Of a DNA stretch of 28,241 nucleotides, positions 2,648-16,716 are shown piece after piece. Each line of letters begins with the position of its first letter. Position 1 is the first letter of the stretch. Below the pieces are notes generated by a model. That model had not been told where the DNA came from. It did no database searches and saw nothing but the letters and a program-made list of their open reading frames with translations. Location: positions 1 through 28,241 of the IMG/VR virus record IMGVR_UViG_3300025891_000176; one strand, 5' to 3'. The stretch is from a virus. The position numbers and the translations under genes were made by a program.

Positions 2648-3101
2648 ACTTCAGAAACTAATCGATAGCAGCGAACAGCTTGTCTACCGCGATCAGATTG
2701 CCGTTATCCGATCGTTCGAAAATAAACGTGGTGCGTATGAAATCGTTGTCGAATTAGACAATACGCCAACCATCTTTCGTAAGCAAAGCGAAGAGATGAT
2801 CAGTCTTTGGCTTGAGAATTTCAAGCCTGCAATTATTGATACAGAAGAATACTATGAATTAAAAGTAAACCAACAGGTTAATGAAGTAATACTCCCGGCA
2901 AAGTTTTCGCCCAGGGCAGAACCGGCCATCTATACCGAAAACAAACAAGCGCTCATTAACTTATCGAAAGCATTACTCGAAGACATTGATAAAGTACGAA
3001 AGGATCCGACCTATGTTGCCCAGGCAAAGCAGATTTGTAACTCTGTGAATACAATCGTCAGTATTACCAAACTTCAGCTGCAGCTGCTAACAAAAGAATA
3101 A
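2634..3101 (+). CDS. Hypothetical early protein, 155 aa
   Basis: No family is recognised. The N-terminal half is mixed strand-like sequence rich in charged residues (VYRDQIAVIRSFENKRGAYE). The C-terminal half (~100-155) is predicted helical by its leucine and lysine spacing (ALINLSKALLEDIDKV and ITKLQLQLLTKE). There is no signal peptide and no membrane segment. It overlaps the HNH-like gene by 14 bases and is followed after 2 bases by the methyltransferase gene, so it belongs to the same early operon. No counterpart is seen in the early module of the second element. Coding status rests on the operon fit and length. Confidence 0.65.
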   Translation: MSLLKLQKLIDSSEQLVYRDQIAVIRSFENKRGAYEIVVELDNTPTIFRKQSEEMISLWLENFKPAIIDTEEYYELKVNQQVNEVILPAKFSPRAEPAIYTENKQALINLSKALLEDIDKVRKDPTYVAQAKQICNSVNTIVSITKLQLQLLTKE

Positions 3102-3103
3102 CC

Positions 3104-3622
3104 ATGACTTTAACAAAATTTGAAAAAGGGGCAGAATTTCAAACGCCTACACCGGTTGTAGAATTCATGTGTAGTTTGATTCCGGAAGGTGTTGTTTCAG
3201 TTTTGGAACCAACACCAGGAGAAGGGAATATTTTAAGCGCTCTATGTGATTACTCTGTAACTGCTCCAGATAATTTCTTTGCACTGGATCCATCTCGCTT
3301 TGATTGTATTATTATGAATCCACCTTTTTCGTTAAAATATGCTTTTGGTGTACCTGAAGAATTGAATCTTAAAGGTTTAAGACTTGGCTATTTTATCCTT
3401 CTCGAATGTATGAAGATGTCGGACAAGATTATTGCCCTAATGCCCTTATTTACAATTTCAGATTCTGATGTTAGGATGAGATACCTTAAAAACTTTGGAT
3501 TAAAATCAATTACAATTCTGCCACGAAAAACATTTAAGTATGTAAGAATTCAAACATGTGTCTTCGAACTCGAAAGAGGGTGGAGCGAAAAAACTATTTT
3601 CAATGTATTTGAATTAATGTAA
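3104..3622 (+). CDS. Compact N6-adenine DNA methyltransferase-like protein
   Basis: A 172-residue protein with the two core motifs of an amino-methyltransferase. SAM-binding motif I is VLEPTPGEGNIL at residues 33-44, and catalytic motif IV is NPPF at 72-75, preceded by FDCII. The order motif I then NPPF, only about 30 residues apart, leaves little room for a target recognition domain there. The C-terminal ~90 residues resemble the tail of the Rossmann fold (IALMPLFTISDSDVRMRYL). It most likely modifies adenine in phage DNA to avoid host restriction, but could be a reduced or specificity-poor enzyme. No cognate restriction gene is nearby, which supports an orphan phage methylase. Confidence 0.75.
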   Translation: MTLTKFEKGAEFQTPTPVVEFMCSLIPEGVVSVLEPTPGEGNILSALCDYSVTAPDNFFALDPSRFDCIIMNPPFSLKYAFGVPEELNLKGLRLGYFILLECMKMSDKIIALMPLFTISDSDVRMRYLKNFGLKSITILPRKTFKYVRIQTCVFELERGWSEKTIFNVFELM

Positions 3623-3635
3623 AACTTTAACAACC

Positions 3636-4232
3636 ATGCCATCACTTAATTTCAATAAAGAGTTTGCACCGGGTATCCTGGCCATGCTCGACAAAAATTA
3701 CGCAAAGCGGACGGGTGTAAAACCAAAGTGTACCACCATCAGGGCAAAGCGGAAACGCCCCATCCGGAAAGGGGATCAGCTTTACTTGTATTCCGGCCTA
3801 AAGACCAAATACTGTCAGAAGCTGGGAGAAGTCGCCTGCAGGAAGACAGAAACTATTTCTATCCGGGAATCGGCTGCAGCTTTTTATGAAGTCGTTGTGA
3901 ATGATGTGCAATTATCGAATGATGAGATTCAAAAGCTGGCACAAGCTGACGGGTTCGCTTCGGGTCTCGAAATGGTGAATTGGTTTGCCAAAGCATACGG
4001 CCTTCCTTTCGAAGACGGACAGCGCATCCACATGGCCAATACTTACGACCGGAAGTATTTCTGCAACAAAAAAGTGAAAGATCATGGATTCACACTGCAG
4101 CTGGAGACAACGCAGAAAACTATCAATGTGCACCAGGAAGATGTGGAAGCAGCCAAAGCGGACCGATATATTGCAGAACTGGCCACAAAACACAATTACG
4201 GAGTTCAGATCATTAACCCACTATTCAGATAG
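3636..4232 (+). CDS. ASCH-domain-like protein, copy 1
   Basis: A 198-residue protein. The N-terminal ~75 residues have GILAMLDKNYAKRTG, TTIRAKRKRPIRKGD and LYLYSG followed by LGEV, which fits the ASCH/PUA-like fold of small RNA- or nucleotide-binding proteins. The highly basic TTIR...KGD loop is the usual ligand-binding face of that fold. The C-terminal half is less familiar and ends IINPLF. A paralog of nearly the same length lies at 23326-23919, with matching ends and about half of the residues identical by eye. Conservation in both early modules suggests a core function, possibly RNA binding or hydrolysis of a modified nucleotide; this is inference. Confidence 0.72.
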   Translation: MPSLNFNKEFAPGILAMLDKNYAKRTGVKPKCTTIRAKRKRPIRKGDQLYLYSGLKTKYCQKLGEVACRKTETISIRESAAAFYEVVVNDVQLSNDEIQKLAQADGFASGLEMVNWFAKAYGLPFEDGQRIHMANTYDRKYFCNKKVKDHGFTLQLETTQKTINVHQEDVEAAKADRYIAELATKHNYGVQIINPLFR

Positions 4233-4238
4233 CTCATT

Positions 4239-4658
4239 ATGAAATACAAAATTATCAATCCCGAAGAGGATCTGTCAACAACAATAGAATTTCTCGAATC
4301 GAAACATCTTTCATCAGGAAGAAAATCCAAATTAAATATTGCTGATTGCAAAATTTATATGAGAGGTCAGGTTTGGGTAGTTGAACATGAAAAGGATGTT
4401 CTGTATTACGAAACGCATTCTGAAAATTATCCATTTTTCGAAATCGCATGTCACTATATGATTACAGAAAAGAGGGCAGCATGGAAAACTGTGGACGAAC
4501 TTACCACTTTCAGACAGGCAATCAGGGAAGCAACTGTACAAGGAACCGACTATTGCGAAACGATATTAGAGGAGCCATTAACAACCAGAATTTATCAGAA
4601 GTTCATGCGCATGGCAAGAGCTCACGATTTATGTCATCATGGAGGCCATACCTTTTGA
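4239..4658 (+). CDS. Hypothetical early protein, 139 aa
   Basis: Unrecognised soluble protein, starting 6 bases after the ASCH-like gene on the same strand. The middle carries a strand-rich segment (IYMRGQVWVVEHEKDVLYYE). The C-terminus is rich in His and Cys, with DLCHHGGHTF as the last ten residues, a possible metal-binding tail. No signal peptide or membrane segment. The 44 bases after it hold no gene. No homolog is apparent in the second early module. Coding is supported by its place in the gene chain and by a uniform reading frame. Confidence 0.6.
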   Translation: MKYKIINPEEDLSTTIEFLESKHLSSGRKSKLNIADCKIYMRGQVWVVEHEKDVLYYETHSENYPFFEIACHYMITEKRAAWKTVDELTTFRQAIREATVQGTDYCETILEEPLTTRIYQKFMRMARAHDLCHHGGHTF

Positions 4659-4702
4659 TGTGATTTTACCAGAATCTTAAACTATTTTAATAAAAACTTC
4701 CT

Positions 4703-5017
4703 ATGAAAAACCTTATACACCACGGCATCCCGAAACAGGATTATTTTGCGATCGCTGTTCCTCCTACCTGGTTGTTTAAATCACTCGACGCTGAAGGCGA
4801 AGTGATCACACTGCAGGACCCGAAAACACATGATAAAACACAGGTTCAAATAATGGATACCTGGGAATTCGAAATGAATGATTTCGCAAGAATGAACGGA
4901 TTCAGCCTGTTGACTTATGGTCTGTCTGCCGCAAAGCTGTCGCACGTTCTGAAAGCCAAATATCCTGAGATTGAACAAACTAATCAAGTACGTTTCGTTT
5001 TACTGAAAAAACTATGA
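4703..5017 (+). CDS. Hypothetical protein upstream of primase, copy 1
   Basis: A 104-residue protein of unknown function whose stop overlaps the primase-helicase start by 4 bases. It appears related to the 101-residue product of 24137-24442, which sits just before the primase of the second element. Both have a strand-rich N-terminus, an aromatic/acidic middle (DTWEFEMNDFAR here, FWTFDWDEAPR there), a YG.....L motif and a C-terminus ending in VLLKKL or LILIKEK. The fixed position next to both primases suggests a replication-linked role. The fold and function are not recognised. Confidence 0.65.
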   Translation: MKNLIHHGIPKQDYFAIAVPPTWLFKSLDAEGEVITLQDPKTHDKTQVQIMDTWEFEMNDFARMNGFSLLTYGLSAAKLSHVLKAKYPEIEQTNQVRFVLLKKL

Positions 5018-8010
5018 TCTATATTGACGCAGATAAAATCCTTGATGCAACGGAGCATGGTCTGACCATCTTTCAGCATTATTTCCCTGGTGTTGATTTT
5101 CGAGACACAAAGCATTTTGTAAAGTGCAGATCCGAGGAAAAAACAGCATCGGCCAAAGTATCGCTTTACAAAGGAACCTGGCGAATTACCGACTTTGGCA
5201 ATCAGTCTGAAATGTCGGGAATGAGCGCTATTGGCTATGTTGGTTGGGCCGAGAACCTGATCTACATCGATTCGCTGCGCTTTATCCAGGAAGTGATCAT
5301 TCGGCGCGAAGTTGGGGGCAGCGATTTCAAACGACCATCCTATAAAGCCGAATACGCATGGAGAGAAGTCGGACCCGAGGACAAAAAAGGCGAATACAAA
5401 TTTGAATACAAGCCCAAACCCTCCGAAATTGATCTTAAAAGCATTGGCCGTTATGTGGAAATAGGTCATCTCGACCGTTTTAATATGAAATCGCTGGTTA
5501 AATACGAAATGATCAGTTACAGTGAACGATACAAAAAGGATATTGTCAACATCTACAAGTCAACCGATGACTTCCCCATCTTCCTGCTCGACGAAGGAGG
5601 CTTCAAAAAGATCTACAAACCTCACGAACTGGAGAAAAAGTACCGGTTCGGGTATGTTGGCACCAAACCCCTCAATTACATTTTCGGCCTTAAACAGCTT
5701 CAGTCGATGGATAATGAGTTTGTAAATCCTGACACCGGCGAGTATGAATACAAAGGTCCGGAGTGGAAGAAACCAAAGGTAAAGGACCTGATCCGCTGCA
5801 GTGGAGAATCGGATGCGCTGAACATGGCCAGCCTTGGATTTAATGTGTACTGGTTAAACAGCGAGTCTGCAGAAGTTCCCCGGGATGTTTGGGAAACACT
5901 TGACGGATTATGCGAAAGACATTACCAGCTGATGGATCTCGATGCAACCGGTAAGGAGATGGCCATGAAGTTTGCCCACCGTCATATCGACCTGGTAACA
6001 ATTCAGCTCCCGGAATGGCTAAAGTTTAAAAAAGACTGGAGAGGAAATCCCTGCAAAGACATTAAGGATTTTATCAATATTTCAGGAACCGATCTGGAGG
6101 ACACCATCAATAATTTTATCACGATTAAAGCCAGCAGTTTTCCGATGAAGTTCTGGAAGCGATCGGTTGACGAAGTGAAAGGAAAGAAGGTTGTCAATTA
6201 CAATATTGGGCTCGAAAACTATTACTATTTCCTTCAATCTCACGGCTTTTATGTGACTGATAGTCCGTATCACCGGAAAGCCGGGTACTGCTATGCCCAT
6301 ATCAACGGAAAGGTTGTCGATCTGATCAATCCTGACAACATCAAAAAGATCATCAAACGATTTACAAAAGACTGGATCCGGAGCAAAAACCTGATCGATG
6401 GTGTGGCCATCCTCGATAAAATCAATTCGAGTAACCAGATATCAGAAAATAACCTGCAGGAGTTAAAAGAATTAACATCGCTCAATTTCATCAATCACGA
6501 TAAACGAACTGATTACCTACATTTTACGAATGGCAGTCTAAAGATTCAAAAGGATTCAATTGAGAAAGTCAAACACCAGGATGTACCCAATTTTATCCTG
6601 GGCAAACTGGAACTGGGAACCGACATCATCAGCCATGTGATTGAGAAGAATATCACGCTGATCAAACAGCCGGCCATTGAAGTAAAACCAATGCCGGCCT
6701 ATGCCTTGCTTCTCGAGAAGCTGAAGGGCGCCAAAACATCTGAAGAGCGCGAAAACTGCAATATTGAACTGGCCAACTTCCCGGAGCTCGACCGCTACGA
6801 AGTCACCATCAATGATGATAGTTTCATCTTCACAAAGTTCCTGACCGACCTTGCACACATCCACTGGCGCAAAGAGATTGAAGATCATTCGAAGCTTACC
6901 GATGCCGAAAAGAAAGAACAAAACCTGTCGCTGGCCAACCTGATGTTTGTATTGGGATATATGACGTCTCAATACAAAGATCCGGGTAAACCATGGCTTG
7001 TTTTTCTCCAGGATATGAAGATCTCACAGATTGGCCAGTCATCCGGACGCTCCGGTAAATCGTTGCTTTGTGCCGCACTTTCGCATACCAGGCCACGCTT
7101 CTACATCGGTGCCAGGCGCAAGGACATCACCGACAAAACGGAATTCCTTTACGACGGTTTCACGAAGTTTCACAACATCATCGAAGTGGATGACTTATAT
7201 GAGTTTGCAGACTTCAATTTCTTTTATACACAGGTCACCGGCAACCGCGAAGTGAACAGCAAACACATCTCGAAACAGATCCTTGCTTACGATACTTCGG
7301 GGAAGATGGTTGTAAGCTCGAATTTTGAATTGCAAAATGTCGACAGTTCAACGATCGCGCGTATCCTGAACGGCGCAGCATCGGACTACTACCACGAAAA
7401 GACTAAGTTCAACGACTACAAGGAATCGCGTTCGCCACTCCTTAAGTTTGGCAAGTTACTGTTTGATGATTTTACAGAAGAGGAATGGATCAAGTTCTAC
7501 AACTTCATGGCTTATTGCGTGCAGCTGCAGATGCGATTTTTTAAGATTCAGCCACCAATGGACAATCTATTGAAACGTCAGTTACGCAGGCTGATGACGC
7601 GTGGAGTATCGAAGGATGAAGAGTTCTTTATCTGGGCCAATCATTATTTTGTGATCCCTCCGGATCCGCGCCCTGCAGTCTGTCCGGACAACGCAGGTTA
7701 TTTCAATGTGTTTTTCAAACGTGAAGCTGCATTCGAAAATTTCAAAACAACACTGAGCACGTCACAGTCGAGCAAATACAAATCGAACCAATTTAAATCA
7801 TCCCTGGGAGCGTGGTGCGAGTACCATGGTTACACGCTGAACCCGATCCACGTCTGCACAGGTACCAATGCCAACGAAGACCGGCGCATCATCAAGAAGA
7901 TCGATGATAAGGCAGTCGAATGTTTCTTTATATCAACCCTAAGCGCCCAGGCAATGGAGGATGATGATACGATCCCAACAGGAGAGGAATTAAACGGATT
8001 ACCATTTTAA
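5014..8010 (+). CDS. Toprim primase with P-loop helicase domain
   Basis: A 998-residue replication protein. The N-terminal ~60 residues resemble a primase zinc-ribbon region that has lost most cysteines. A Toprim domain follows: Glu265 in SGESD and the acidic pair Asp308/Asp310 in MDLDATG. A helicase-like P-loop domain has Walker A GQSSGRSGKS at 674-683 with Lys682, acidic Asp726/Asp727 after NIIEV, and a downstream VVSSN sensor-like motif typical of SF3/D5-type helicases. It would prime and unwind phage DNA. The last residues are NGLPF, like the tail of bacterial SSB. The stop is followed by a 36-base sequence repeated at 8365-8400. Confident as a primase-helicase; exact subfamily is not settled. 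Confidence 0.85.
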   Translation: MIYIDADKILDATEHGLTIFQHYFPGVDFRDTKHFVKCRSEEKTASAKVSLYKGTWRITDFGNQSEMSGMSAIGYVGWAENLIYIDSLRFIQEVIIRREVGGSDFKRPSYKAEYAWREVGPEDKKGEYKFEYKPKPSEIDLKSIGRYVEIGHLDRFNMKSLVKYEMISYSERYKKDIVNIYKSTDDFPIFLLDEGGFKKIYKPHELEKKYRFGYVGTKPLNYIFGLKQLQSMDNEFVNPDTGEYEYKGPEWKKPKVKDLIRCSGESDALNMASLGFNVYWLNSESAEVPRDVWETLDGLCERHYQLMDLDATGKEMAMKFAHRHIDLVTIQLPEWLKFKKDWRGNPCKDIKDFINISGTDLEDTINNFITIKASSFPMKFWKRSVDEVKGKKVVNYNIGLENYYYFLQSHGFYVTDSPYHRKAGYCYAHINGKVVDLINPDNIKKIIKRFTKDWIRSKNLIDGVAILDKINSSNQISENNLQELKELTSLNFINHDKRTDYLHFTNGSLKIQKDSIEKVKHQDVPNFILGKLELGTDIISHVIEKNITLIKQPAIEVKPMPAYALLLEKLKGAKTSEERENCNIELANFPELDRYEVTINDDSFIFTKFLTDLAHIHWRKEIEDHSKLTDAEKKEQNLSLANLMFVLGYMTSQYKDPGKPWLVFLQDMKISQIGQSSGRSGKSLLCAALSHTRPRFYIGARRKDITDKTEFLYDGFTKFHNIIEVDDLYEFADFNFFYTQVTGNREVNSKHISKQILAYDTSGKMVVSSNFELQNVDSSTIARILNGAASDYYHEKTKFNDYKESRSPLLKFGKLLFDDFTEEEWIKFYNFMAYCVQLQMRFFKIQPPMDNLLKRQLRRLMTRGVSKDEEFFIWANHYFVIPPDPRPAVCPDNAGYFNVFFKREAAFENFKTTLSTSQSSKYKSNQFKSSLGAWCEYHGYTLNPIHVCTGTNANEDRRIIKKIDDKAVECFFISTLSAQAMEDDDTIPTGEELNGLPF

Positions 8011-8025
8011 ACCAATAATTAATAA
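7990..8025 (+). repeat. Imperfect 36-base direct repeat, copy 1
   Basis: This copy covers the last codons and stop of the primase-helicase plus 15 bases beyond it. It matches 8365-8400 apart from two or three substitutions and two single-base gaps. The match continues past both stop codons, so protein-level selection alone does not explain it. The two copies bracket two very small genes. Confidence 0.7.
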
Positions 8026-8036
8026 ATCAAAGAGTT

Positions 8037-8198
8037 ATGAAAACAGAAACAACTTATTCAGATTTTGACCTTGAAAAAGGTAAATGCACTTGCTGTGGCG
8101 ACCTATCTATGGAGATTCTTATTGACGATGGTCGTTGCGTTGATTGTATTGAGGAGGAAAAATTCATAGATCTAACAATGAAGCAACATGAGGGATAA
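8037..8198 (+). CDS. Small zinc-ribbon-like protein, 53 aa
   Basis: A 53-residue frame starting ATG at 8037 and ending TAA at 8196-8198. It carries C-x-CC (residues 17, 19, 20) and C-x2-C (34, 37), the spacing of a small treble-clef or zinc-ribbon knuckle: KCTCCGDL then GRCVDCIEEE. It starts 26 bases after the primase-helicase stop and overlaps the next small gene by 11 bases. Proteins of this kind in phage operons often act as DNA- or protein-binding adaptors. Function unknown; coding status is supported by the paired cysteine motifs and the tight gene spacing. Confidence 0.6.
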   Translation: MKTETTYSDFDLEKGKCTCCGDLSMEILIDDGRCVDCIEEEKFIDLTMKQHEG

Positions 8199-8385
8199 TA
8201 CATGGTACTTCACTGATTCTACTTGGATAGAACGATTATTTAAAAGTAAGTCAGGATATTACGCGAGAAACAAAGGATGGGAAGATGGAGACAAACAGAT
8301 CACCTCTCCACCTTGTAAACAAGGCTACTATTACGATGAGTATATGAAAAGTAATAGAGATTCGTTAAACGGACTCCCATTTTAA
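8188..8385 (+). CDS. Small protein with SSB-like C-terminal LPF tail
   Basis: A 65-residue protein rich in aromatic and charged residues (MRDNTWYFTDSTWIERLF, GYYYDEY). It ends DSLNGLPF, the same five final residues as the 998-aa primase-helicase upstream. The tail resembles the conserved C-terminus of bacterial SSB (DDIPF/DDLPF), which recruits replication and repair proteins. It overlaps the zinc-ribbon gene by 11 bases and is followed by the second copy of the 36-base repeat. The body of the protein is not recognised. It may be a real replication accessory peptide, or a fragment whose end was copied from the primase gene. Confidence 0.5.
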   Translation: MRDNTWYFTDSTWIERLFKSKSGYYARNKGWEDGDKQITSPPCKQGYYYDEYMKSNRDSLNGLPF

Positions 8386-8400
8386 TCAATAATTTAATAA
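8365..8400 (+). repeat. Imperfect 36-base direct repeat, copy 2
   Basis: Second copy of the sequence at 7990-8025. It encodes the LNGLPF end and stop of the 65-aa protein and the A/T-rich bases leading to the first DGR target gene. Together the copies define a 375-base unit that could have arisen by tandem duplication or by insertion. Confidence 0.7.
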
Positions 8401-8410
8401 TTTAAAAATC

Positions 8411-8869
8411 ATGTCATTAACAATTGAAAAACAAGAAGCAAAAAGGATTTATGTTGAATCACCAGATTGGTTCAAACTGAAATTAGTAGAAGCGTTTGGC
8501 GAAGAATGCTTCAAGGAAAAAGGTTTTGAAAGCATTAAAACCTTTGAAGATGCATGTGCTGTGTTGGGGATCAATCCTGGATTAGTTTTTAATCGTGCTG
8601 ATACACCCGATGAATTCGCATACAAGAAATTGAAAGTGATTATTAAGGCCATTAACGAGGGATGGATCCCGGACTGGAGTAACAGGGACCAATACAAATA
8701 CTACCCATGGTTTGAGGTCTTGTCTTCCGGGTTCGGTTTTTCGTTTTCGGATTACCACTATACGTACGCGTTTGCGACTGTCGGCTCCCGCCTTTGCTTT
8801 GAATCACGGGAGAAATCAGATTATGCTGCCAAACAATTTATTGATATATATAAATCATTTTTACTCTAA
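8411..8869 (+). CDS. DGR variable target protein 1
   Basis: A 152-residue soluble protein whose variable segment is residues 103-129, encoded by VR1. The constant N-terminal part has KTFEDACAVLGI, IIKAINEGWIPDW and QYKYYPWFE. The variable segment begins VLSSGFGFS and ends VGSRLC, and between these nearly every codon derives from an adenine-bearing template codon. A further 23 residues (AAKQFIDIYKSFLL at the end) follow, so the VR is internal rather than at the very C-terminus as in many DGR targets. No signal peptide or membrane segment. About half identical by eye to target 2. It probably serves as a ligand-binding display protein; the ligand is unknown and so is the fold. Confidence 0.85.
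   Translation: MSLTIEKQEAKRIYVESPDWFKLKLVEAFGEECFKEKGFESIKTFEDACAVLGINPGLVFNRADTPDEFAYKKLKVIIKAINEGWIPDWSNRDQYKYYPWFEVLSSGFGFSFSDYHYTYAFATVGSRLCFESREKSDYAAKQFIDIYKSFLL
8716..8797 (+). repeat. DGR variable repeat VR1
   Basis: 82 bases aligning without gaps to the template at 9329-9410. I count 15 differences, and every one falls on an adenine of the template; all non-adenine template positions are unchanged. Ends: GGTCTTGTCTTCC at the 5' side and CCT.TGC at the 3' side. This adenine-only pattern is the hallmark of mutagenic retrohoming. Confidence 0.95.
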
Positions 8870-8882
8870 TACTTTAATTATC

Positions 8883-9296
8883 ATGACTACAAAAACGAAA
8901 AAACCAGCAACAAGTAAGGTAAAGTTTAATTACAAGACTATCAAAACCTTTAATGATGCCTGTGCAAAATTATCTCTGGATCCTGCTCAGCTCCCGGACA
9001 CATCGATGATCCCTGAAGAGTTCAGCAAGCCAATCATTGCTGGTTACAAACTGATGATCATTTTTAAGGCAATTAACGATGGATGGACTCCGGACTGGAG
9101 TAACAACCAGTATAAGTATTATCCATGGTATTGGGTCTTGTCTTCCGGGTTCGGTTTTTCGTATTCGGATTTCAACTATTCGATCACGTATACGACTGTC
9201 GGCTCCCGCCTTTGCACAGATTCATCTGACAAGGCACAATTCATAGCTGACCAATTCATAGCTGAATACCAAGAGTATTTACTTTACTCCGAATAA
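8883..9296 (+). CDS. DGR variable target protein 2
   Basis: A 137-residue paralog of target 1, with VR2 encoding residues 85-111. ATG at 8883 is chosen because the frame upstream of it runs through VR1 of the previous gene in another phase. The N-terminus is lysine- and threonine-rich (MTTKTKKPATSKVKF), then come KTFNDACAKLSLDP, IFKAINDGWTPDW and QYKYYPWYWVLSSGFGFS. The segment after the VR is helical and acidic (FIADQFIAEYQEYLL). The gene starts 13 bases after the stop of target 1, so both are likely in one operon. Two open target frames diverging only at template adenines within the VR suggest both have been diversified. Confidence 0.85.
   Translation: MTTKTKKPATSKVKFNYKTIKTFNDACAKLSLDPAQLPDTSMIPEEFSKPIIAGYKLMIIFKAINDGWTPDWSNNQYKYYPWYWVLSSGFGFSYSDFNYSITYTTVGSRLCTDSSDKAQFIADQFIAEYQEYLLYSE
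9134..9215 (+). repeat. DGR variable repeat VR2
   Basis: 82 bases aligning without gaps to the template 9329-9410 with 12 differences, all at template adenines. It differs from VR1 at many of the central adenine-derived positions (for example TCGATCACGTATACG against ACGTACGCGTTTGCG) but agrees with VR1 at the outer ones. Confidence 0.95.
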
Positions 9297-9328
9297 ATAA
9301 ACAAAAGGTTGTACGCTGTTGTGCTGCC

Positions 9329-9410
9329 GGTCTTGTCTTCCAGGTTCAGTTTTTCGAATTCGAATTACAACTATACGAACACGAATACGAATGTCAGCTC
9401 CCACCTATGC
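9329..9410 (+). repeat. DGR template repeat TR
   Basis: The non-coding donor of the DGR, between target 2 and the reverse transcriptase, in the same orientation. It holds 22 adenines in 82 bases, concentrated in an AAY-rich core that would read N-S-N-Y-N-Y-T-N-T-N-T-N in the target frame. AAY codons are typical of DGR templates because adenine mutagenesis of them reaches many amino acids but no stop codons. The TR is about 100 bases upstream of the RT start, the usual TR-RT arrangement. The 99 bases between them hold no gene and are probably part of the template RNA. Promoter of the template RNA not identified. Confidence 0.93.
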
Positions 9411-9509
9411 GATATTTGCAGCGTAGACCCTGCCTACATGGCAAAAAACAACAATTTAAAATGAGCGTTGGTAACCGAAAAAGTGAAAACGATCTTTAAA
9501 AGCAAAGGC

Positions 9510-10463
9510 ATGAAAAGGATTAACAACTTGTATGAAAGGATCTGCAGTGTTGAAAATCTGCAGTTAGCTGATTTAACAGCAAGAAAAGGAAAAGCCAAAC
9601 AACCAGGAGTGATCCTGCATGATACAAACAAGGTTGAAAATATACTGAAGCTTCATGAATTGATGAAGAATAAAACGTATAAAACATCTCAGTACACCAC
9701 TTTCAAGATTTACGAACCCAAAGAGCGATTAATCTTCCGGCTGCCATACTACCCTGATCGTATCACCCATCACGCGATAATGGCAGTCATGGAGCCTATT
9801 TTTGTATCAGCATTTACTACTGATACTTACAGTTGCATTAAAGGCAAGGGTATTCATGCAGCAGCCAACGCTGTCAAACAAGCGCTTAAAAATATGGCCG
9901 GCACTCAGTATTGTCTTAAACTTGATATCCGAAAGTTCTACCCCAATGTCGATCATGAGATACTAAAAGCCATGTTGCGCCGAAAGATCAAGGATAACGA
10001 CCTGTTATGGCTTCTTGACGAAATTATTGACAGTACTGAAGGACTTCCGATCGGAAACTATTTAAGCCAGTATTTCGCTAATTTTTACCTGGCGTATTTC
10101 GATCATTGGATCAAGGAAACCAAAAGGGTTAAATACTATTTCAGGTACGCTGACGACATGGTAATTCTTTCTGATAGCAAACTCTATTTACATGAATTAC
10201 TGTCTGAAATCAGATTTTATATGACTGATAACCTAAAGCTGACGATCAAAGATAATTACCAGATATTTCCAGTTGATACCAGGGGGATTGATTTTGTGGG
10301 ATATATATTCAGGCACACCCATACACTACTTAGAAAAAGCATCAAGCAGAGTTTTGCCAGGATGCTATCTAAAAATAAAAATGATCAATCCATTGCATCT
10401 TATAAGGGATGGGCATCACACTGTAACAGCATCAATCTATTAAAAAAATTATTGCATGAATAA
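9510..10463 (+). CDS. DGR reverse transcriptase
   Basis: A 317-residue reverse transcriptase. ATG at 9510 gives the usual N-terminus (MKRINNLYERICSVENL, then ARKGK); an in-frame TTG at 9468 would add 14 residues. Motifs in order: KERLIFRLPYYPDRITHHAI (71-90), catalytic LDIRKFYPNVDH (138-149, Asp139), LPIGNYLSQ (179-187), YADD (213-216) and GIDFVGYIF (259-267). The GN-x2-SQ form of motif 4 is typical of DGR enzymes and unlike group II intron RTs. It copies the TR RNA into cDNA with errors at adenine, and the cDNA replaces VR sequence in the targets. No maturase or endonuclease domain. The catalytic residues look intact. Confidence 0.93.
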   Translation: MKRINNLYERICSVENLQLADLTARKGKAKQPGVILHDTNKVENILKLHELMKNKTYKTSQYTTFKIYEPKERLIFRLPYYPDRITHHAIMAVMEPIFVSAFTTDTYSCIKGKGIHAAANAVKQALKNMAGTQYCLKLDIRKFYPNVDHEILKAMLRRKIKDNDLLWLLDEIIDSTEGLPIGNYLSQYFANFYLAYFDHWIKETKRVKYYFRYADDMVILSDSKLYLHELLSEIRFYMTDNLKLTIKDNYQIFPVDTRGIDFVGYIFRHTHTLLRKSIKQSFARMLSKNKNDQSIASYKGWASHCNSINLLKKLLHE

Positions 10464-10761
10464 CTTTAGTCAATTCAACATCCAGTCGGCCACCAAAGCA
10501 TTTGATGGTGACAAAATAAAAATGTCTAAAATACTGAACTGTGAAATTGTGGTGCATCATTTCAAAATCGAGGACTCAAAGGTATTTAAAGAGCGAGGAT
10601 CGGGTAAATGCCTGCATCTGCAGATATCATTCAACAACGAAAAGCACATCATTTTTACGTCATCATCTGGACTGATAGAAGTCATTCAAAAGATCCCTGA
10701 GAATGGATTTCCATTCACTACCACGATAGTCCAAGATAACGAAAGATTCAAGTTTACCTGA
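10456..10761 (+). CDS. Small protein coupled to the DGR reverse transcriptase
   Basis: A 101-residue protein starting 8 bases inside the end of the RT gene, so translation is probably coupled. It is mostly strand-like: KILNCEIVVHHFKIEDSKV, KCLHLQISFNNEKHIIFTS, and a final FPFTTTIVQDNERFKF. This could be a small barrel fold. It does not look like the four-helix Avd accessory protein of the Bordetella-type DGR, and no Avd-like gene is visible elsewhere in the cassette. Position makes it a candidate DGR accessory factor. It is the last gene before a strong terminator. The family is not recognised. Confidence 0.7.
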   Translation: MNNFSQFNIQSATKAFDGDKIKMSKILNCEIVVHHFKIEDSKVFKERGSGKCLHLQISFNNEKHIIFTSSSGLIEVIQKIPENGFPFTTTIVQDNERFKFT

Positions 10762-10792
10762 ACACAGCAGTATTCAATTCGATCATGTAGCC

Positions 10793-10822
10793 AGCCTGAT
10801 CCCGCAAGGGTCAGGCTGTTTT
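10793..10822 (+). terminator. Rho-independent terminator after the DGR operon
   Basis: AGCCTGA-T-CCC pairs with GGGTCAGGCT around a GCAA tetraloop (10 pairs with a one-base bulge), followed by GTTTT. It lies 32 bases past the stop of the RT-coupled gene and ends the early-DGR transcription unit. Confidence 0.85.
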
Positions 10823-10885
10823 AATACGTGCCGGCCATAGCCGGTACACCGCGTGAATGATCACTGCGTGCGCAAGCACGTATTA
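10822..10885. repeat. Long inverted repeat with internal hairpins
   Basis: TAATACGTGC at 10822-10831 is the exact reverse complement of GCACGTATTA at 10876-10885. Inside lie a CCGGC-CATA-GCCGG hairpin (10831-10844), a small GTGA/TCAC pairing (10853-10864) and a competing CGTGC-GCAA-GCACG hairpin (10867-10880... within the right arm). A branched cruciform or RNA structure is possible. Its position directly after the terminator and before the GGTTACAA array is unexplained. No coding sequence is present. Confidence 0.5.
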
Positions 10886-10970
10886 TGTAGCGTAGCAAAC
10901 TTGGACTATAAAAGTAGTTGGTTTGGGTGGGTCGCCCTTCCCCCTTAAACCCCAAATATTCAATATATAT

Positions 10971-11249
10971 TTGTAACCTGTAACTTTATTTATAATATAC
11001 GAAGAATCAAATAATTACAGGGTTACAACTTGGTTACAACTTCAAAAAAAAACTGTAACTTTTTGAATTTGTAACCGGAGAGCACCTCCGGTTTTTCCCT
11101 ATTTCCGCTCCGGTTACAAATTTCGTTGTTTTTACACCCCTTTGAATCAACTGTTTTTCAATAGGTTACAAAACACCCCTAAAACAAGTTGTAACTTTGT
11201 AACCGCTGTATATCAAAATGTTGCAAGGGTAAAAGATAGCCGGTTACAA
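10971..11249. repeat. GGTTACAA/TTGTAACC octamer array
   Basis: Eight exact copies of one octamer lie in 279 bases: plus orientation at 11021, 11032, 11112, 11164 and 11242; minus orientation (TTGTAACC) at 10971, 11069 and 11197. Near copies sit at 10978 (CTGTAACT), 11053 (CTGTAACT) and 11189 (TTGTAACT). Less than 0.01 copy is expected by chance. The rest of the 640-base non-coding region (10762-11403) is A/T-rich. The array precedes the promoter of the virion module, so a late-gene regulator is one reading; replication iterons or partition sites are others. A lone copy is also at 20663-20670. Confidence 0.85.
11066..11123 (+). terminator. Terminator-like hairpin inside a larger inverted repeat
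   Basis: AACCGGAG (11073-11080), loop AGCAC and CTCCGGTT (11086-11093) form an 8-pair hairpin running into TTTTT, a typical intrinsic terminator. The same left arm is also part of a 15-base perfect inverted repeat, 11066-11080 with 11109-11123, which includes two octamers of the array. The left arm can therefore pair with either partner. Confidence 0.55.
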
Positions 11250-11340
11250 ATTTTTGCCATTTTTTGATAAAAAAGATAGGGGTATGTTTTTTCAGTATCA
11301 ATTTTTCATAATATCAAAACACCCTACAAATATTATTTTA

Positions 11341-11370
11341 TTGTTATTTAAGCAAAATTTCATATCTTCG
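11341..11370 (+). promoter_or_regulatory. Probable Bacteroidetes-type promoter of the virion module
   Basis: TTG at 11341-11343, then 19 bases, then TATCTTCG at 11363-11370, which is one mismatch from the TAnnTTTG element recognised by the Bacteroidetes primary sigma factor. Transcription would begin near 11377, giving a leader of about 27 bases before ATG 11404. The octamer array ends 92 bases upstream, as expected for an activator- or repressor-controlled promoter. Confidence 0.5.
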
Positions 11371-11403
11371 CATGTTCCCACCACAACGGGGTTTTCACGA
11401 ACC

Positions 11404-11937
11404 ATGAAACCCTATACTCCTATGAATACACGTCCGTCAATTACTATCTCGCTTTCTCCGCTGCTGCAATCCTATTGCCGGTTTGTTTTTAATTCGGATC
11501 CCAATGAGAAAGAGATCCGCCTTCGCCGAAACCACGACATCGCAAAATTGATACACTCAAATGTGATCGCCTTTGACAGATCCATGGTCCGGCCTTTCGA
11601 GTCCGATTCAATTACCTTTATTTTGGCACTAGATAATATTAATGAAACTGCGTTGCGGTATCATTTTTTACATGTTTCCAAATGGGGAGAACAGAAGATC
11701 ACGGAAGGCATTGAATACGAATTTAGACACTGGATTAAAAACTGCTTTGACAGAGGATACGAAAAAGGGTACCAGCAGAAGGTAATCATCGAAGCGATTC
11801 TCCGGGGCCTGAATGACCGGAACAATTCCGCAAATTTCGACATGATTAAGAAAATCGACTACCGATATCGGCGTAAAGTGGAAGAAACACGGTTCAATGA
11901 TCTCCTTAAAGAGTGTCAAATATTTGAATACCAATAA
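11404..11937 (+). CDS. Hypothetical protein, first gene of the virion module
   Basis: A 177-residue protein. ATG 11404 is preferred because it follows the predicted promoter; the frame stays open further upstream only through the non-coding array end. ATG 11422 is an alternative. The sequence is soluble, basic and helical in its second half (AEFRHWIKNCFDR-type pattern, then ILRGLNDRNNSANFDMI and KVEETRFNDLLKECQ). An N-terminal stretch RPSITISLSPLLQSYCRFVF may be a short strand-helix unit. No family is recognised. As the leading gene of the late unit it could be regulatory or a head protein. Confidence 0.6.
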   Translation: MKPYTPMNTRPSITISLSPLLQSYCRFVFNSDPNEKEIRLRRNHDIAKLIHSNVIAFDRSMVRPFESDSITFILALDNINETALRYHFLHVSKWGEQKITEGIEYEFRHWIKNCFDRGYEKGYQQKVIIEAILRGLNDRNNSANFDMIKKIDYRYRRKVEETRFNDLLKECQIFEYQ

Positions 11938-12013
11938 TATATTATAAACAAAATAAATGTTCCGATACTTTTTGTAAGATTGTTAACAATAATCATCGAA
12001 AATCCGATAGAAA

Positions 12014-12391
12014 ATGAACAGCGCAGTAATCATAAAAATAGAATTCCGTTTTCCAAATATTGAACTATTCACACCGATTGACTATACCGGATTTTCGGCA
12101 AGTCTGACAGAGCAAACAAGTAAATCCTTTGCCGGAGTACTTCATACTGCTGCACTTCAGTTCCGGATTCCTAAATGTGATGCTGAAAAAGACCGGCTGA
12201 TGTTATCACTCTCACAGCGACGTGCCATATACCAGGCAACCGATGCAAACGGATCTGTTTACAAAATTGGATCCTCAAAACGGGGAGCACTGTTATTGTA
12301 TAACCGGACCGTCGATGGAAAAGCAGGTGGCTTTAACGGTTACGAAGCGGTAATTACATTGAAATTTAAAGGGAATCCGTTAATATCCTGA
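12014..12391 (+). CDS. Hypothetical virion-module protein, 125 aa
   Basis: A strand-rich soluble protein with no recognised family. The N-terminus alternates hydrophobic residues (AVIIKIEFRFPNIELFTPI), and the C-terminus has YKIGSSKRGALLLYNRT then YEAVITLKFKGNPL. Such a beta-rich layout is common in small phage neck or tail-completion proteins, but this is only a guess from position. The 76 bases before it contain a perfect 12-base palindrome, ATTGTTAACAAT at 11979-11990, and no clear promoter. Confidence 0.6.
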   Translation: MNSAVIIKIEFRFPNIELFTPIDYTGFSASLTEQTSKSFAGVLHTAALQFRIPKCDAEKDRLMLSLSQRRAIYQATDANGSVYKIGSSKRGALLLYNRTVDGKAGGFNGYEAVITLKFKGNPLIS

Positions 12392-12451
12392 AATTAAAAG
12401 TCCTTTAAATTGGTAATTCACCAGAGTAACATTGTAAAAAATGATACTCAG

Positions 12452-13636
12452 ATGTTGAATTATCAGCTCATAAAATCTATTCTTTCCGAGCCCTGGGCAA
12501 TCGACAGCCTGGCCATCGACACGATGAGCCCGCTTATTGCCGGCCTGTTCACTCCGAACATGGCATTTGAAGCATCTGAACCAATGCAGCCCTCGGCATC
12601 AGCTTACGCCGATCCGAAATCGGGTACCACCAAAACTGTTCGTATTATTCCCATTCAGGGAAGCCTCACCAAATATGATCAGAGTTGCGGACCAGTTGGA
12701 ATGGCAACTGTAGGTAGATGGATCCAGAGCGCCGATTCAAACCCTGATATTGATGCAATAGTTTTGTGCCTCGATTCTCCAGGTGGAACAGTATCCGGAA
12801 CAGAGGAACTGGCCAACATCATCAAAGGAACCTCAAAACCAATTATTGCATATGTTGAAGACATGGCCTGCTCAGCTGCTTACTGGCTGGCAAGTTGCTG
12901 TAATGAGGTGGTAGCAAATAATTCAACTGCACAGGTTGGCAGTATTGGTGTATTAATGTCGTTTGCCGATGCCCAGCCAATGTGGGAAGCAAAGGGTGTG
13001 AAATTCCATACCGTCACAGCTCCCCAGTCAACCGACAAAACAAAAACCTTTGAAGATCTTCGTGCCGGTAATTACGAGGAGTACAAAAACACCGTACTTG
13101 GTCCGCTGGCACAAAAATTTATTGCAACTGTCCAGGGCAACCGTCCGGGAATAACCGATGCTCATTGCACCGGCAAGGTTTATTTTGCCCAGGATGCAAT
13201 CGGATCGTTTGTCGATTCAATCGGAAACCTCGATTTTGCCGTTCAGCGTGCAGCTTCACTGGCTTCATCTCCTTCCGCTTCAGTAAATACCCCCAAAATT
13301 TTAAATATGAATCATAAAAGACTTGCTACAGTAGCCGGTGTCGAAGCGTTTGAGAGCGCAGATGGCACCATCGCGCTCACTGAACAGATGGCACTGGCTG
13401 TTGAGACTGCACTTGAGAGTGCAGAGGCAGAGCGAAACCATCTTGCTGAGCGCACGACCGAACTTGGAACGGCAACTGGCCGTGTTCAGGAACTCGAAGC
13501 CCGCGTGGCTGAACTCGAAGGCGCTGCCGGTGCCGGATCTGCAATCGTTATTGTAGACACCGATAAAGGCGCATCCGGTGAAACTTCATTCTGGGAACGC
13601 TTAGGCACTTGCCAGGAACATTTAAAGAAATCTTAA
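12452..13636 (+). CDS. S49-family prohead protease with C-terminal scaffold-like coiled coil
   Basis: A 394-residue protein from ATG 12452 (MLNYQLIKSILSEPW); a TTG at 12410 is in frame but less likely. The protease core of the SppA/SohB clan has IPIQGSL, AIVLCLDSPGG (103-112), the serine nucleophile Ser141 in MACSAAYWLAS and GSIGV at 163-167. The likely Lys base is around 196-198. Residues ~290-370 are alanine- and glutamate-rich (AVETALESAEAERNHLAE, VQELEARVAELEG) and form a coiled coil, as in protease-scaffold fusions of phages. It would help assemble and process the procapsid made by the next gene, 13 bases downstream. Confidence 0.85.
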   Translation: MLNYQLIKSILSEPWAIDSLAIDTMSPLIAGLFTPNMAFEASEPMQPSASAYADPKSGTTKTVRIIPIQGSLTKYDQSCGPVGMATVGRWIQSADSNPDIDAIVLCLDSPGGTVSGTEELANIIKGTSKPIIAYVEDMACSAAYWLASCCNEVVANNSTAQVGSIGVLMSFADAQPMWEAKGVKFHTVTAPQSTDKTKTFEDLRAGNYEEYKNTVLGPLAQKFIATVQGNRPGITDAHCTGKVYFAQDAIGSFVDSIGNLDFAVQRAASLASSPSASVNTPKILNMNHKRLATVAGVEAFESADGTIALTEQMALAVETALESAEAERNHLAERTTELGTATGRVQELEARVAELEGAAGAGSAIVIVDTDKGASGETSFWERLGTCQEHLKKS

Positions 13637-13649
13637 TTTTTTTTGAGCA

Positions 13650-14597
13650 ATGATAAATATCAATCAAGCATTAATCGACGCCGGCAAACAGTTTAGGAAG
13701 GAGCTTCTTACCATGCCGGTAGCTGTATTAAGCGACATGCTTCAATACATGACGCTAAGAACAGGTATTCAGGGCACAGTTGTCGGTGGTACATTAGACA
13801 CCGATGCTCAGCTCAGGCCTTACCGCACCGCCAAAGATGCGACGGACAACACAACTATTGTTCCTTATGAATGGTCAACATTCCTGGGTGACGTGGTTAA
13901 AGAGTTCGACCCGAACGCAATCCTTGGGACGCTCTACACCGAAAAGACCAACAAGCGACCTACTGAGCGCGAAATCGCAAGGCTTGTAGCCCTTGAAATG
14001 GCAAAGAAAGTTGGAGAAGCACTTTACGACGCTTCTTTCACTGCAGTACGTAATGCTGTTGGCACCACCTCTGCTGATCTGTTCAACGGTTGGGCCACTC
14101 AGTTGGCTGCCAAAATCACAGCTGGAGAACTTGCTACCGGAAAAGGTAACTATATCGACGTATCGCTTACTGCCATTACTTCCACCAATGTTGGTGATGT
14201 ATTGAAGGACGCATGGCGCGGATTAAATCCTTTGCTGAAAAAGCAACGCCCAAATCTTTATCTTCCATATTCAGTACTTGAAATGTATGAAGATTGGTTC
14301 CAGGTTGAGTTTGGTCATGCTCCATGGAATGCTGACTTTACTCAAAAAACGCTGATTGGCTCTGACAAGAGATGCAACTTTGTTCCTCTTGACAATATGG
14401 AGGGTACTGATAAGTTAATCTTTACACTTCCAGGCAATATGCTTGTTGGTTGCGATCAGGACAGCGACAAAGAGGATGTTAAAATCCGCGAATGCGACAA
14501 CCCAAAAATGGTTCAGTTCTTTATGATGGCCTATTATGGTGTTGGTTTCGATACTCTTGACAAGAGGTTTATGAAAGTAATGAAATACTCAGTTTAA
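13650..14597 (+). CDS. Major capsid protein, HK97-like
   Basis: A 315-residue protein, the size of compact HK97-fold major capsid proteins. The sequence has the expected layout. There is a helical N-arm (INQALIDAGKQFRKELL) and a central helix rich in R/E (RPTEREIARLVALEMAKKVG). Then comes LPYSVLEMYEDWFQVEFGHA, a segment seen in Bacteroidetes phage capsid proteins. A C-terminal strand-rich domain ends DKRFMKVMKYSV. It directly follows the protease-scaffold gene and precedes another structural gene, the conserved head-gene order. No membrane segment. The assignment depends on context and fold outline; motif-level proof is limited for this protein class. Confidence 0.75.
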   Translation: MININQALIDAGKQFRKELLTMPVAVLSDMLQYMTLRTGIQGTVVGGTLDTDAQLRPYRTAKDATDNTTIVPYEWSTFLGDVVKEFDPNAILGTLYTEKTNKRPTEREIARLVALEMAKKVGEALYDASFTAVRNAVGTTSADLFNGWATQLAAKITAGELATGKGNYIDVSLTAITSTNVGDVLKDAWRGLNPLLKKQRPNLYLPYSVLEMYEDWFQVEFGHAPWNADFTQKTLIGSDKRCNFVPLDNMEGTDKLIFTLPGNMLVGCDQDSDKEDVKIRECDNPKMVQFFMMAYYGVGFDTLDKRFMKVMKYSV

Positions 14598-14607
14598 TCT
14601 CTGAAAT

Positions 14608-15186
14608 ATGATCTTCGAAAATCTATTATGGCCAGCCGGGAAAATAAACCCGTCTGGCATCAAGACTGAAGTTTACTTTATTGACAAGAGCTTCATTACT
14701 ACCTGGCCTAAAATTATTGGCGCTCCGCTAACTGCTACTGATAACGTTACCTTAGCAGGTGACTTTGGACTTGTAGTAGGTAAAAAGTGGAATAGACTCT
14801 ACACAACCCAGGGAAAAGGGAAAGTAGATTTTGAACCAATTGGCGAAAAGGATTGTAAAATGTTCAACAATAAAGGAACATTCAAATTTCCTGATATCAG
14901 CAACGAGGCCAAAAGCCTGGCGAAATCTGCTATCAACTCAAATGTCATTTTTATTGTGCCCCTTCCTCACGAAAGTGAAAAACGGTACATCGTACTTGGA
15001 GACGAAAACTATGACCTTGAAGTAACTGTAAAAGGCGATTCAGGCGATGCACCCGGATCAGCAAAGGGTATTACCATCGAGGTAACAGCCCCTGCCACTA
15101 CCCCGCTCCCGAATTATATCGGTGCATTGGTAACAGCAGAAGGCTCACTTGATATTGAAACCGGCGTATTTACCCCCACTGTATAG
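14608..15186 (+). CDS. Putative virion structural protein (decoration or tail-tube candidate)
   Basis: A 192-residue, strand-rich protein directly after the major capsid gene. The N-terminus MIFENLLWPAGKINPSGIKT leads into alternating strands (VTLAGDFGLVV, GKVDFEPIGEKD). Residues ~135-192 form a threonine/valine/glycine-rich domain with the look of a small beta-sandwich (GITIEVTAPATTPLPNYIG). Position suggests a capsid decoration or stabilising protein; a major tail protein is another possibility. A terminator follows 17 bases after its stop, so it ends the protease-capsid transcription unit or allows strong expression of these genes. Confidence 0.6.
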   Translation: MIFENLLWPAGKINPSGIKTEVYFIDKSFITTWPKIIGAPLTATDNVTLAGDFGLVVGKKWNRLYTTQGKGKVDFEPIGEKDCKMFNNKGTFKFPDISNEAKSLAKSAINSNVIFIVPLPHESEKRYIVLGDENYDLEVTVKGDSGDAPGSAKGITIEVTAPATTPLPNYIGALVTAEGSLDIETGVFTPTV

Positions 15187-15203
15187 ACACTAACAAATAA
15201 AAC

Positions 15204-15235
15204 AAAGCCGGGGCCAACGCTCCGGTTTTGTTTTT
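15204..15235 (+). terminator. Rho-independent terminator after the capsid genes
   Basis: AAAGCCGGGGC pairs with GCTCCGGTTTT (11 pairs including two G-U) around a CAAC loop and runs into GTTTTT. It separates the capsid genes from the packaging genes. Read-through or another promoter would be needed for the genes downstream; the next ATG is only 13 bases away. Confidence 0.8.
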
Positions 15236-15247
15236 AAAACTGTGATT

Positions 15248-16018
15248 ATGACACCACATGAAGAAATAAAAGATTGGCTGGATTCTGAAACGAAGGATTT
15301 TGAAGCCGGTTATGTATTGTTTGTCCGATTTTCGCACAACCGGGCGCTTGCGTTGTACCTGGCACGGAAACACGATTTATTGAAGCTAACGTATGAGCTT
15401 CAAAAGATCAGCGACCGTCCCACACTGAAGGATGCTCCGGTTATGCCGATTGGTCCGATATTGAAGATGGTTAAATCTTCAGAGGAGAAAGTAAACGGAA
15501 TTACCGATGCCGGCAATCTAATTGACAATACAGAGCAAAAGGTACGAATCATCAAGGATGGCAAAGTTCAGTATGATGATCTTCCGGAAGAACTTAAAAA
15601 GCTGTATGATGAAAATACGGCCAGTTATAAAAATATGCGCACGCTTCACGAACAGATGAAGCTCGCTAAAACCGATGAGGAACGCGCAGAAAAGAGGGCT
15701 ATCATCGATACACTTGATGATGGGATCTCCGGCAACTGGAAGATCATTGATGACTGGGCTGCAGGGAAAATAACGGAGGCTGATTTAGTCGCAGCAACCG
15801 GAGAGCAGGAAGAGTACAAACAGATCAACGCTGCCCGGACCTACCTTTCGCGCAATATCTCTAAGATGGAAGTACTGAAAGGTGAAAAGCACGAAAAGAT
15901 GAAGCTCGATCTTCGCACCAGGGTAACTTATCTAAGATCGAAGAAAGCGGATATCAGTCTTGAAACGCTGGTTAAACTGGCCAAACATGGCGTCATCGAC
16001 GAAACTGAATTGGGTTAA
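15248..16018 (+). CDS. Helical, charged protein of the head/packaging module
   Basis: A 256-residue protein from ATG 15248; an in-frame GTG at 15242 is possible. It is highly charged and mainly helical (EEIKDWLDSETKDFEAG at the start, LHEQMKLAKTDEERAEKRAI in the middle). The C-terminus carries RTRVTYLRSKKADISLE. No membrane or signal segment. Such helical proteins just upstream of terminase genes may be scaffolds, head completion factors or terminase partners, but none of these is shown by a motif. It overlaps the next gene by 32 bases. Confidence 0.6.
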   Translation: MTPHEEIKDWLDSETKDFEAGYVLFVRFSHNRALALYLARKHDLLKLTYELQKISDRPTLKDAPVMPIGPILKMVKSSEEKVNGITDAGNLIDNTEQKVRIIKDGKVQYDDLPEELKKLYDENTASYKNMRTLHEQMKLAKTDEERAEKRAIIDTLDDGISGNWKIIDDWAAGKITEADLVAATGEQEEYKQINAARTYLSRNISKMEVLKGEKHEKMKLDLRTRVTYLRSKKADISLETLVKLAKHGVIDETELG

Positions 16019-16454
16019 CGGCATTGCCCCGTTCTTATCAAATCAAATTCAATTTCAGGATGTATTTGATTTTATGTTGGATGACTGCGGAAGAGCTGAT
16101 AAAATGGTTATCAGCTCTTTTGCTATTTCAGAGGCTCTGGTTCGCAGGATCATCCGAAACCGGCACCGGATTGATCACCTGACATTATACCTGGACTTCA
16201 CCATTGCCAGCCGTAATCCGCGAATGACAATGTTTGCAGCTAAAAATGTTGATGAGCTTTACCTGACTAATAATCACAGTAAAACGATTTACACTTCAGG
16301 AAACGGAAAAGAGTACCTGGCAGTAATATCAAACAATGCAACCAATAATCACCGGTACGAATGTGGACTGGTGATCAGTTCCAGGGAAGTGATCAATTGC
16401 TTCAGAGAACAATATAATCAAATGAAAAACGACAGTGTAAAGTGGGATGGATAA
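15987..16454 (+). CDS. Possible phospholipase-D-fold protein with degenerate HKD motif
   Basis: A 155-residue protein. ATG 15987 is chosen to limit the overlap with the preceding gene to 32 bases. The sequence has MVISSFAISEALVRRII, LTLYLDFTIASRNP, then NNHSKTIYTSGNGKEYLAVI followed by SNNATNN and E. This follows the outline of the PLD superfamily half-site: H-x-K, a strand, then SxNxTxN-x3-E. The Asp normally found after H-x-K is replaced, so catalysis is doubtful. A role as nuclease-like or structural partner of packaging is speculative. The next gene starts 8 bases before its stop. Confidence 0.55.
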   Translation: MASSTKLNWVNGIAPFLSNQIQFQDVFDFMLDDCGRADKMVISSFAISEALVRRIIRNRHRIDHLTLYLDFTIASRNPRMTMFAAKNVDELYLTNNHSKTIYTSGNGKEYLAVISNNATNNHRYECGLVISSREVINCFREQYNQMKNDSVKWDG

Positions 16455-16716
16455 AGAATTATTGGAGAAGGTTGAAGAGTATGCGTCACTGTTTTTCACA
16501 GTGGACGAAATATCATTAATGCTCGAATTGAGCCCCTCAGATTTTCGGCGTGAAGTCAGATATGGTAAAAGCGATCTTGCCAAATCCTATCACCGGGGCA
16601 AACTGAAAACAATGGTCGAGATCAGACGGCTCACGGTTGAGTTTGCTAAAAAAGGGAGTCCGCAAGCTGAAGCATTTGTAAAGGATTACATCGAAAAACA
16701 GGAAGAAAATGAGTAG
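16447..16716 (+). CDS. Small HTH-like protein of the packaging module
   Basis: An 89-residue, mainly helical protein. Residues ~10-45 (YASLFFTVDEISLMLELS, then SDFRREV) suggest a helix-turn-helix of the kind found at the N-terminus of small terminase subunits, followed by a basic helix (YHRGKLKTMVEIRRL). It overlaps both neighbours by 8 bases. It may be a separate DNA-recognition protein working with the terminase, or a packaging regulator. No family is recognised with certainty. Confidence 0.6.
   Translation: MDKELLEKVEEYASLFFTVDEISLMLELSPSDFRREVRYGKSDLAKSYHRGKLKTMVEIRRLTVEFAKKGSPQAEAFVKDYIEKQEENE

Follow-up and report, generated by a model that had tools for sequence, protein, structure and literature searches.

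The locus described here raises the question of whether a reverse transcriptase (RT) gene and three similar repeats among the early genes of a viral genome form a diversity-generating retroelement (DGR) and, if so, which proteins it diversifies and which bases it rewrites. The window, i.e. the whole stretch of DNA that was analysed, comprises nucleotides 1 to 28,241 of IMG/VR record IMGVR_UViG_3300025891_000176. With a probability of about 0.78, we read it as carrying a complete DGR of a Bacteroidota prophage, which would act on two small, probably intracellular early targets, employ an OB-like protein in place of Avd and randomize a core bounded by fixed marks. The features concerned are collected in Table 1.

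Table 1. Features of the DGR cassette, in window coordinates.
Feature	Position	Strand	Remarks
Target gene 1, VP1, 152 aa	8411..8869	+	phrog_11581, E 3e-31; helical conserved N-terminal part, variable C-terminal part
VR1	8716-8797	+	randomized core 8736-8778; fixed marks 8729, 8735, 8783, 8790, 8794
Target gene 2, VP2, 137 aa	8883..9296	+	phrog_11581, E 1e-28; diverged VP1 paralogue, 47% identity
VR2	9134-9215	+	randomized core 9154-9196; fixed marks 9147, 9153, 9201, 9208, 9212
Template repeat (TR)	9329-9410	+	mutable core 9349-9391; fixed TR-only adenines 9342, 9348 (5'), 9396, 9403, 9407 (3')
Structured spacer RNA between TR and RT	9426..9506	+	Rfam RT-17 (RF03020) similarity, covariation
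DGR-type reverse transcriptase	9510..10463	+	ATG 9510; open frame from TTG 9468; RVT_1, phrog_1423, 8ub7
Candidate DGR accessory gene, 101 aa, pI 8.6	10456..10761	+	overlaps RT stop codon; OB-fold-like model

The ungapped alignment of VR1 with the TR contains 15 mismatches and that of VR2 contains 12, every one of them opposite a TR adenine. The TR has 22 adenines in its 82 positions, and neither VR differs from it at any of the remaining 60. Were the mismatches placed at random on the 82 positions, their confinement to adenines would have a hypergeometric probability of 1.7e-11 for VR1 and 7.8e-9 for VR2. Every coordinate and count given for these repeats in the initial annotation was reproduced, and its description of a complete two-target DGR is correct. 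Each VR occupies a C-terminal position in its target gene, in the final third to half of VP1 or VP2, and a search of both strands of the window revealed no third VR. The RT contains the motifs LPIGNYLSQ and YADD, by which it had already been assigned to the DGR type, and matches RVT_1 (Pfam) and phrog_1423 (PHROGs). Among solved structures, the best profile match was 8ub7, 'Reverse transcriptase' (E 2e-55), which we take to be the RT of the BPP-1 DGR. The membership of this element among genuine DGRs is secure.

The targets, the TR and the RT had been correctly described as parts of the cassette, whereas the spacer RNA and a conserved accessory gene had been overlooked. Likewise, the contents assigned to 8411-10463 stand but the end does not, as the cassette runs on through the accessory gene to 10761. 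The window spacer matches RT-17 over its full length with 36.9 bits (E 9e-5), slightly below the gathering score of 40.4; the spacer of a relative, L070, scores 44.0, above it. In an alignment of 26 spacer sequences, three helices have 95.8% of their cells paired, and 62 cells show two-sided changes, compared with 15.3 after shuffling and no more than 15 in slid versions. Single-sequence folding of the spacer was no better than that of shuffles (z +1.0), and the structure is revealed only through comparison of sequences. Since the spacer is structured, the RT is likely to start at the ATG at 9510 and not at the upstream TTG. In BPP-1, whose DGR has been rebuilt in E. coli, a structured spacer recruits the RT complex (PMC12875486).

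The DGR of BPP-1 (mtd-avd-TR-brt) resembles that of the window in its adenine-directed TR/VR pairs, its homologous RT and the structured RNA between TR and RT. In contrast to BPP-1, whose target is a tail fibre, the window has two small early targets, and a small OB-like gene after the RT instead of a detectable Avd. A GC-rich hairpin or cruciform of the BPP-1 kind was not found after the VRs; a 6-bp inverted repeat follows VR1, and none that is GC-rich follows VR2. Of the features of BPP-1-type elements, neither Avd nor the GC-rich hairpin was thus found in the window.

A search with the RT protein retrieved 283 relatives from IMG/VR, 80 of which were kept, and 80 loci from GTDB genomes, nearly all of them in Bacteroidota and the closest in Prolixibacteraceae (80%). 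Of the 80 viral loci, 76 yielded TR/VR pairs in a scan for adenine-only repeats, mostly with two VRs upstream of one TR, and the small VP family was present upstream of the RT in 141 of the 168 RT loci examined. The window DGR belongs to a large family from Bacteroidota phages, whose cultured carriers include Pedobacter, Flavobacterium and Dyadobacter (L106, L126 and L124). Among known phages, those with similar RTs are mostly crAss-like (50-60% protein identity); those examined have a single VR in the gene preceding the TR, which is annotated as a tail protein in several. Three VRs per TR were seen in L008, L054, L111, L119, L122, L125, L131 and L166, with one VR of L008 some 4 kb upstream of the TR.

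The initial annotation had placed the cassette beside replication genes and not tail genes, and this early-gene position recurs in relatives with unrelated neighbours. In the window, a 998-aa primase/helicase-like gene with a weak match to phrog_28855 lies upstream of the cassette, and the head genes begin after it, at 12.4 kb. The gene in the corresponding place in L015 matches phrog_28855 and, N-terminally, DNA primase. In L022 the cassette is near a primase; in L070 and L063 it is flanked by an exonuclease (RecE-type or YqaJ) and a replication initiator, and in L106 it comes after Mu-type transposition genes. Because the cassette is found among replication and recombination genes in phages with otherwise unrelated neighbours, its targets are probably early, non-virion proteins.

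Neither VP1 nor VP2 matches a Pfam family over the cut-offs, and hydropathy analysis indicated no transmembrane stretch in either. Comparison of the VP profile with solved structures gave no convincing match. An AlphaFold model of VP1 (pLDDT 86) is confidently helical in its N-terminal part; the VR part was modelled with too low a confidence to give a fold, C-type lectin or other, and was without a match among the chains compared in a check for C-type lectin and Ig-like folds. Structure searches with VP1 gave no useful match in the PDB, and the matches in BFVD are uncharacterized phage proteins. In two whole records of 40-50 kb, no VR of the TR was found beyond the two. Based on the early position, the lack of a transmembrane stretch and the presence of only two VRs in whole records, VP1 and VP2 are probably best read as early, soluble, non-virion proteins. 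A tail protein is the target in most phage DGRs with assignable targets (PMC8144416), and the sequence at the 3' end of the small VRs, GSRLCF, is similar to that which closes the VRs of tail-type targets in related DGRs. Hence, VP1 and VP2 might be virion or tail proteins encoded away from the tail module, with a role in adsorption as in BPP-1. However, this is unlikely for proteins of 14-16 kDa with no tail domain, whose TR has no additional VR in the two whole records, and whose cassette adjoins primase, RecE-type exonuclease, DnaD-like initiator or Mu-type transposition genes in unrelated phage backgrounds.

DGRs with two VRs and one TR are already known (PMC6642488, PMC10743442). The two targets described in PMC10743442 differ from each other in function and carry C-type lectin domains, whereas those of the window are small early-region paralogues. 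For a non-structural target of a phage DGR there is a single precedent, in a Quimbyviridae phage (PMC8008677), which is also a Bacteroidetes phage. Unlike that of the window, the Quimbyviridae DGR has one structural target and a second encoded on the opposite strand, in the midst of defence genes, and its RT is split over three frames. By analogy with that target, it may be guessed that the ligands of VP1 and VP2 are host defence factors or rival phages (PMC8008677). The layout of the cassette is known in outline; what is notable is the strict partner gene of the RT, the short core with marks on either side, and the paired early targets.

When 24 genes of the window were tested against the viral loci, only VP1, VP2, the RT and the gene at 10456-10761 proved general, the remaining neighbours being present in no more than 6 of the 80. 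This last gene directly follows the RT in all 78 IMG/VR loci with sequence there, and usually overlaps the RT stop codon in the relatives. Its pairing with the RT was examined in an even draw of 400 genomes from the family of Pedobacter arcticus, a strong DGR RT being defined by an E value below 1e-120. These genomes contain 15 strong DGR RTs and 15 copies of the accessory gene, adjacent and one to one; weaker, other RTs are without a copy, and the search of the 400 genomes detected the gene nowhere but next to a DGR RT. Homologues also directly follow the RT in two archaeal viruses, ANMV-1 (E 5e-19) and Caudoviricetes sp. vir525 (E 2e-21), both of which differ from the window in having a single target, namely AdtA, encoded close to tail fibre genes, in ANMV-1 and the product of a gene labelled 'tail protein' in vir525. 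Among the tail-target DGRs of Bacteroidales and others, the homologue is located one gene further downstream. An extra gene of ~130-180 aa was observed between the RT and the OB-like accessory in the tail-target DGRs L151, L152, L153 and L165. In addition, the Prolixibacteraceae contig of L172 carries, ~40 kb off, a second, divergent DGR-type RT (L177) with an accessory homologue one gene downstream. A detectable accessory gene is lacking in 11 RT loci with enough downstream sequence, several crAss-like phages among them. Since these crAss-like DGRs have related RTs, the accessory cannot be indispensable throughout DGRs of this kind.

No Pfam family matched the accessory protein over the cut-offs, nor did any PDB sequence, and its profile gave unconvincing results against solved structures. 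The AlphaFold model of the protein (pLDDT 86) has an OB-like order of elements. The leading rows of a structural alignment include OB-type domains of RuvBL2, POT1, PRD1 P12 and Thermus SSB (Z 4-6.5), with Foldseek E values for the OB matches above 0.1; these modest matches are suggestive of an OB-fold-like protein. PF05635, the Pfam family closest to Avd (PMC10053308), had no match in the window and none over the cut-off in 16 related records. From its conserved place after the RT, the 101-aa protein is probably a DGR accessory factor replacing Avd, and so strict a partner of the RT offers a specific candidate for the accessory factor still missing in Avd-less DGRs. The gene shares one operon with the targets, downstream of them, and OB-like proteins often serve replication, as would be expected of a chaperone or co-factor of the VPs or of a general phage ssDNA-binding protein with no accessory role in the DGR. 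Either function is improbable, however, as the gene follows the RT also where the targets are different and tail-associated (ANMV-1, vir525), occurs one gene further along in tail-target DGRs, and had no copy apart from a DGR RT in the 400 genomes. The identities of RT, accessory protein and VP2 correlate only moderately across loci (Spearman ~0.4 each), too little for a claim of tight co-evolution. An earlier genome survey, reported to have added further DGR accessory genes (Wu 2018), names, according to PMC10053308, a DGR-associated protein without a Pfam entry, which might be equal to the accessory family reported here. A limited literature search for OB folds in connection with DGRs returned a matching paper that concerns another system.

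The initial annotation further suggested that the cassette has recently been active on two targets. Adenine-site activity is indeed seen in relatives, on one target. L070 and L073 differ at 11 positions over 10,921 bp (locus 2043-12963), all of them in VR1 opposite template adenines, and their TR, RT and VR2 are identical. A single mutagenic retrohoming event that hit one of two targets would be expected to leave such a pattern, and pairs such as those among L051, L052 and L060 show the same at greater distance. Recent activity of the window copy can at most be presumed: the only other record of it, L002/L214 (IMGVR_UViG_3300006950_000015), equals window 8121-18393 exactly over 10,273 bases, both VRs included, and is therefore uninformative on this point. 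Thus, a fixed TR beside a varying VR is seen between L070 and L073, whereas the two records of the window copy show no variation. The identity of both VRs in these records, together with a prophage apparently disrupted by an integrase in the terminase gene, could point to a decaying, inactive relic. Yet the RT, both VPs, the TR, the RNA and the accessory gene are intact, and there is no non-adenine drift between TR and VRs; decay of the window copy therefore has little probability.

The differences between VRs and TR had all been taken as adenine hypermutation, but five in each VR are of another nature. In 130 TR/VR pairs from 71 loci, template adenines sorted by column fall into two classes, those of core columns -44 to -2 (the mutable core of Table 1) and those of six flanking columns. 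Core adenines (n=2038) are changed in 60% of cases, the VR reading A in 40%, G in 28%, T in 20% and C in 12%. In the six flanking columns, 536 of 541 adenines are changed, nearly always into one same base. At column -52, a synonymous Ser site, the VR reads G in 73 of 74 pairs (TCA to TCG in 71 of 74), and at column +14, a synonymous Leu site, it reads T in 96 of 97 (CTA to CTT in 92). Where the TR has G at +14 (CTG), the VR is still CTT in 24 of 24 pairs. The log10 probability that the core spectrum would give 74 G or 97 T running is near -41 and -68, respectively, figures which kinship among the pairs limits to the order of the contrast. In the window, such marks account for 5 of the 15 VR1 differences and 5 of the 12 VR2 differences and are common to nearly all relatives, so that the true hypermutation differences number 10 in VR1 and 7 in VR2. 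About 43 bases are actually randomized, bounded by fixed differences on both sides. That the flanking A-to-G/T differences reflect ordinary hypermutation plus protein selection, with no limit to the transferred tract, is the least likely of the alternatives; several marks do alter a residue to a conserved Gly or Arg (SSGFG, GSR), but protein selection cannot account for the near-invariant synonymous sites -52 and +14, T is read at +14 even opposite a TR G, and the CTA-to-CTT mark recurs in tail-type targets of related RTs, which are of another kind.

We know of no earlier description of TR/VR marks on the 5' side. The 3' marks match the IMH/IMH* difference of BPP-1 in position (PMC3240598, PMC12875486), and the fixed marks on the 5' side are an additional feature of the window DGR. 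Pairing of the 5' with the 3' marks of the TR (AGGU with ACCU) was dropped on inspection by eye, several TRs being without it. The two-sided marks show which bases such a DGR rewrites, which matters for counts of diversity and for use as a laboratory tool.

The sequences show that one TR serves two VRs, that adenines are randomized only in the ~43-base core, and that fixed differences flank this core on both sides. The RT would bind the structured RNA between TR and RT and copy the TR into adenine-mutated cDNA, with the 101-aa protein, bound to the RNA template or to the cDNA, standing in for Avd. The cDNA would then replace the core of one VR at a time, and the flanking marks would keep the VR distinct from the TR, such that the TR is not overwritten. 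The resulting VP variants may explore a range of ligand specificities within the infected or lysogenic cell, the likeliest opponents being host defence factors or competing phages. If so, this is an intracellular recognition system and not a receptor-binding one. A large conserved family with two small early targets suggests that phages also put hypermutation to use within the cell, the place where they encounter host defences and rival phages. We propose only tentatively, with the odds slightly against so broad a claim, that these elements form a widespread branch of phage DGRs with an undescribed OB-fold accessory protein for Avd, a core bounded by marks on two sides and paired cytoplasmic early targets.

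The remainder of the window also has an unusual arrangement. The terminase gene (17274-18448, 354 aa) seems cut short just before an integrase gene; its homologue in Microcystis phage Mea-Yong924-1 has 530 aa. The integrase gene (18448-19719) is followed by a divergent repressor (19776-20447) and a second early region, three genes of which are related to genes of the first (1036/22407, 219/21318 and 3636/23305). One prophage may have integrated in the terminase gene of another. The L214 record stops 55 bases short of the integrase start, as if the assembly broke at the junction.
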